Program-made: the position numbers and the translations under genes
Shown here: piece by piece, positions 9,106 to 10,657 of the stretch
Numbering within the stretch: position 1 is the stretch's first letter
Layout: the number at the start of each line of letters is the position of its first letter
Assembly (NCBI GenBank): GCA_902532675.1
Contig: CACAIY010000006.1
Span: 1-64,000 of the forward strand
Length of the DNA stretch: 64,000 nt
Source: an uncultured SAR86 cluster bacterium
Lineage (GTDB): Bacteria; Pseudomonadota; Gammaproteobacteria; Magnimaribacterales; Magnimaribacteraceae
Direction of reading: 5' to 3'
Notes under the pieces: model-generated
Databases searched by the model: none
The model's input: the letters and a program-made list of their open reading frames with translations, nothing else
What the model was told of the DNA's origin: nothing

Positions 9106-10657
<1,552 letters not shown>

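Follow-up and report, generated by a model that had tools for sequence, protein, structure and literature searches.

The 16S rRNA gene in a stretch of 64,000 nucleotides from an uncultured SAR86 cluster bacterium (hereafter the window) carries a rewritten and fully paired helix 14 at the target site of probe EUB338. We consider it very probable that this is an ordinary, functional SAR86 16S rRNA gene in which two inner pairs of helix 14 were replaced stepwise by compensatory, nearly neutral drift. The window has a compensated variant of the EUB338/338 site, with paired changes in helix 14 that are fixed in a lineage with one origin, and, judged from the sequence, the cost of the swap is the loss of the perfect match to EUB338-I and 341F.

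Helix 14 in the rRNA operon of the window

The window contains a complete rRNA operon on the forward strand, consisting of a full-length 16S rRNA gene (9106-10657; RF00177, 1559 bits, model positions 1-1533), a 23S rRNA gene (10928-13826; RF02541) and a 5S rRNA gene (13889-14003; RF00001). One 16S copy was found in the draft genome to which the window belongs (1.34 Mb, 42 contigs, 82% complete). Identity to named SAR86 records (AG-319-O13, AG-343-J11 and other assemblies, up to 99.6%) and a 16S tree place the gene inside SAR86. It is enclosed by an inverted repeat, of which the 28-nt upstream arm (8979-9006, + strand) is 86% complementary to the downstream arm (10673-10700, + strand) and which, from its position, would be an RNase III-type processing stem. 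The spacer between 16S and 23S (10658-10927) is without a tRNA gene at the place where E. coli rrnB has tRNA-Glu, and no tRNA genes were found in the entire 64 kb window or in the rRNA loci of six relatives. Elsewhere in the window, an ORF of 840 aa (15666-18188) resembles by eye a subtilisin-type serine protease with a C-terminal autotransporter-like part, and two similar tandem ORFs of 379 and 367 aa (18180-20432) resemble ferritin-like diiron proteins.

In the alignment to E. coli, the EUB338/338R target site (E. coli 338-355) lies at 9452-9469 on the + strand and reads ACATCTACGGATGGCAGC, compared to ACTCCTACGGGAGGCAGC in E. coli. On the 5' strand of helix 14 (CATC, 9453-9456, + strand; E. 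coli 339-342) A9454 and T9455 replace the usual TC, and on the 3' strand (GATG, 9461-9464, + strand; E. coli 347-350) A9462 and T9463 replace the usual GA, G9461 (corresponding to G347) being kept; the UACG loop (9457-9460, + strand; E. coli 343-346) is the usual one. Pair 340-349 has thereby changed from U-A to A-U and pair 341-348 from C-G to U-A, and the rest of the site is as in E. coli, including C339-G350 and the closing pair C342-G347. The four changed letters make up two intact base pairs, and helix 14 is fully paired in the Rfam alignment, CATC-UACG-GATG forming a four-pair stem with its UACG loop at the usual place of the helix in a full-length 16S match. In an alignment of 23 sequences, 100% of the helix 14 cells hold standard pairs, and cells with both sides changed, counted jointly for helix 14 and the helix 15 hairpin, number 21 versus 5.0 ± 1.6 in shuffled alignments (0/500), with 0-1 such cells in slid controls. 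The first-pass annotation had reported this sequence at 9452-9469 in a 16S rRNA gene and had read it as a structural change by two compensatory pairs; the sequence is indeed present there, in a full-length gene, and the reading is borne out by the Rfam alignment and by the shuffled and slid controls. Helix 5 and its 3' partner (9152-9159 and 9470-9476) also look altered in the window's genus, which has AGTTAAG versus AGTGGGG in 17/17 other gammaproteobacteria, and the 5' side apparently compensates in part.

Distribution of the stem within SAR86 and in other phyla

In a 16S tree from which the columns of the helix 14 site were left out, SAR86 comprises four families, f1 (that of the window) to f4, with f1 pairing with f3 and f2 with f4. 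Of the 23 f1 genomes with a 16S, 17 carry CATC/GATG, three CGTC/GACG, two CTTC/GAAG and one the standard CTCC/GGAG. The CATC/GATG stem is present in all 17 16S-bearing genomes of two sister genera (4/4 in the window's genus and 13/13 in the other), CGTC/GACG in 3/3 and CTTC/GAAG in 2/2 genomes of their respective genera; f2 and f3 have the standard stem and f4 has CTTC/GAAG. On the tree, CATC/GATG has one origin (17 rows, SH-aLRT 96), next to a sister genus with CTTC/GAAG, a state that itself needs two origins, f4 having acquired it independently of f1. No unpaired helix 14 states occur among the SAR86 rows examined, and C342, G347, the UACG loop and A160 are invariant across SAR86. Because the CTTC/GAAG genus adjoins the single origin of CATC/GATG, parsimony suggests as the simplest order that pair 341-348 changed first and pair 340-349 thereafter. 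In a class-level sample of Gammaproteobacteria, 116 of 369 genomes matched the site pattern, two of them being SAR86 variants, one CGCC/GGCG, two stems with one U-G pair and the remainder standard, which makes the site nearly uniform outside SAR86; the CGCC/GGCG stem (E. coli 339-350), from one non-SAR86 gammaproteobacterium, is another compensated helix 14 allele.

Four SAR86 families, with a tree pairing of the same kind, were also described in the main text of a 2024 study (PMC11582366), in which a keyword search found no mention of helix 14. By its G+C near 36% and the pairing of the four families in the 16S tree, f1 would fit the Magnimaribacteraceae (SAR156) as presented there, and f4 would fit the small-genome CHAB-I-7.

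That an assembly chimera, contamination or a sequencing error produced the stem, as might be thought of a fragmented draft with 42 contigs and 82% completeness, is hardly conceivable. The stem is common to 17 genomes, many of which bear AG- codes of the single-cell style and one of which is a single 1.59 Mb contig; the nearest relative, 99.6% identical over the 16S, has an identical stem; and four errors yielding two exact pairs are implausible in themselves. Relatives have the same flanking genes: tyrS lies upstream of the rRNA locus, and wherever a relative from the two genera has a locus that extends far enough, a PanK-like gene lies downstream. Together with the inverted repeat, these conserved neighbours show that the locus is intact. 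The assertion that the stem is no read error therefore holds, and neither a standard stem in the same organism nor a chimeric assembly, which the first-pass annotation had named in advance as grounds for abandoning the variant, came to light.

The hairpin of helix 15 (GGGG-GCAA-CCCU, 9490-9501, + strand; E. coli 376-387) was likewise noted at the outset as covarying, near 9490, and as a sign of fast rRNA evolution. Its sequence is as described, but it is nothing unusual, being common in Gammaproteobacteria: GGGG-GCAA-CCC also occurs in f3, whose helix 14 is standard, and 8/17 other gammaproteobacteria show this CG-to-GC change. Fast rRNA evolution finds no support in view of these standard-stem carriers and of an unexceptional 16S branch, the root-to-tip distance of the window's genus being 0.138 versus 0.142, 0.160 and 0.169 for the sister families.

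A 20-mer with the variant stem was sought in 84,980 species genomes and turned up in 36 records from at least six phyla, all in 16S context, which excludes that the stem is unique to the window's lineage. Besides the 17 SAR86 records there are 19 from at least five other phyla (Chloroflexota, Verrucomicrobiota, Bacteroidota, Patescibacteria and Methylomirabilota), namely from Anaerolineales, another Chloroflexi bin, Opitutales and relatives, Marinoscillum-like Bacteroidota, several Patescibacteria, Methylomirabilis and a few unnamed bacteria. Since the same 20-mer lies in the 16S of these 19 non-SAR86 genomes, the CATC/GATG allele is convergent. Paired variants at the same two helix 14 pairs were described for several phyla in the main text of Mao et al. 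2012 (PMC3445835), where 338F-3A12T, 338F-4T11A and 338F-3C4T11A12G are compensated changes; in that notation the window allele is 3A4T11A12T and combines two of the listed variants. This four-base allele is absent from the main-text section on variants, as is SAR86 from the main text. EUB338-II and EUB338-III were designed because of one such paired variant (Daims et al. 1999, as cited in PMC6753630). Like the window, their targets, as given there, have a lineage-specific change from U-A to A-U at 340-349 and have lost the match to EUB338-I, but they keep C341-G348, whereas the window alters 341-348 too and so leaves EUB338-III with two mismatches. Literature searches found no paper spelling out the variant 18-mer or its probe complement, no SAR86 hybridisation results at this site and nothing on point about mismatches of SAR86 to EUB338 or 341F. 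As the allele is not spelled out in the literature searched, it appears, as far as these main texts go, to be a new instance of a known variation, paired changes at these two pairs having been catalogued already in 2012.

Probe and primer matches

In silico, the site in the window and in both genera mismatches EUB338-I at four positions (7, 8, 15 and 16 of the probe), EUB338-II at three, EUB338-III at two (one being a G-U) and the degenerate 341F CCTACGGGNGGCWGCAG at two (positions 1 and 8 of 17); the older non-degenerate 341F has three mismatches to the window, and for 27F, 515F-Y, 785R, 806RB, 926R and 1492R the match in the window's genus is perfect. The mismatches given in the first-pass annotation, four to EUB338 and two to 341F (first base and G8), were correct, and the in silico test on related assemblies that it proposed returned for both genera the same mismatches as for the window. 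EUB338-I and 341F each have two mismatches to the CTTC/GAAG stem of f4. A probe matched to the variant site reads GCTGCCATCCGTAGATGT.

With four mismatches, FISH with EUB338-I would probably fail on variant cells. EUBmix might fail as well, since EUB338-III, in a rough proxy using RNA parameters, is about as stable on the variant target as on the E. coli target, which has an equal number of mismatches (-29.1 versus -29.0). An analogy is offered by some Chloroflexi filaments, 'Ca. Promineofilum' and 'Ca. Trichobacter', which belong to another phylum than SAR86 and, like the window, lack a perfect match to any EUBmix probe; these were reported not to hybridise with EUBmix (PMC6753630). As the mismatches to 341F lie away from its 3' end, the loss in PCR may be mild. 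Surveys may thus miss or undercount the lineage, as the first-pass annotation had inferred, but against this stand the perfect matches of the six other primers, the position of the 341F mismatches and a count of just two mismatches for EUB338-III.

Function and origin of the exchanged pairs

Bridge B8 is made by helix 14 and helix 8 in contact with L14 and L19, and a C342-G347-A160 triple ties helix 8 to helix 14; G347U-type mutations break this triple and raise miscoding, helix 14 being known as a hot spot for mutations that cause miscoding (PMC6379664). In the window all members of this triple are present, C342 and G347 in helix 14 and A160 in the GAAA loop of helix 8 (9275-9278, + strand; E. 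coli 159-162), and the genes for L14 and L19 were both found in the genome. Since C339-G350, C342-G347, the UACG loop and A160 are untouched, the triple and the intersubunit bridge B8, which restrains miscoding, would be expected to function as they do in other bacteria, and with the exchange confined to inner pairs of the stem, the functional effect of the swap is most likely small. The predicted stability of the isolated 15-mer hairpin goes from -6.6 kcal/mol for the standard stem to -4.4 kcal/mol for the variant, so that strict neutrality is not established and a slight functional shift may be possible.

Helix 14 being a miscoding hot spot in contact with L14 and L19 (PMC6379664), its change could have been adaptive, tuning bridge B8 and decoding together with corresponding changes in L14 or L19. 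Some columns of L14 do split variant-stem from standard-stem genomes in a small set of SAR86, e.g. K67 (E. coli numbering), at which f2 and f3 have K, and f1 and f4 either N or S. We regard such an adaptive change as very unlikely, because the comparison sets two clades against two clades, so that any family difference separates them, because residue 67 is S also in L14 of two standard-stem non-SAR86 gammaproteobacteria, because L19 has a single, weakly varying column between the variant-stem and standard-stem sets, and because the contacts of G347 and A160 are undisturbed. For L14 and L19 there is thus no persuasive sign of coevolution with the stem, the columns being confounded by phylogeny and the K67 pattern being broken by other gammaproteobacteria. 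Simple A+T mutational pressure in low-GC genomes is an improbable driver too: the window has about 34-39% G+C outside the rRNA operon and the change from C-G to U-A at 341-348 reduces G+C, but that from U-A to A-U at 340-349 leaves it the same, another f1 genus moved to G-C, and f2 and f3 kept the standard stem although they are probably similarly A+T-rich (by the family names that we assigned from the main text of PMC11582366).

Against pure drift it can be held that Gammaproteobacteria outside SAR86 are almost invariant at the site, and three changed stems in one order may therefore mean relaxed constraint. These three stems are all paired, and two of them are predicted to be about 2 kcal/mol less stable. 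They might point to a helix 14 that SAR86, a lineage abundant in the ocean, has relaxed or retuned, with a shift in the dynamics of bridge B8 and in the accuracy of decoding, but we hold this to be a quite remote prospect. Under stepwise, nearly neutral compensatory drift, the reading that we favour, CUCC/GGAG would probably have become CUUC/GAAG by a change at 341-348, a state that persists in the sister genus, and a change from U-A to A-U at 340-349 would then have led to CAUC/GAUG; each replaced pair would have been swapped for another Watson-Crick pair, one pair per step, and the contacts important to bridge B8 would have been kept during the drift.

In 22 of the 23 sampled f1 genomes with a 16S and in 5/5 f4 genomes, EUB338-I has two to four mismatches and 341F has two, and counts by FISH with EUB338-I only could therefore miss those f1 and f4 cells. 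SAR86 is put at about 2-6% of ocean communities, and each of its two smaller families just over 10% of SAR86 (PMC11582366, main text); the affected community share would thus be roughly 1% or less if the family assignment is right. The practical importance is modest, and the stem provides a clean, small case of stepwise compensatory evolution, with a likely intermediate preserved by a sister genus and with other phyla having arrived at the same end state.
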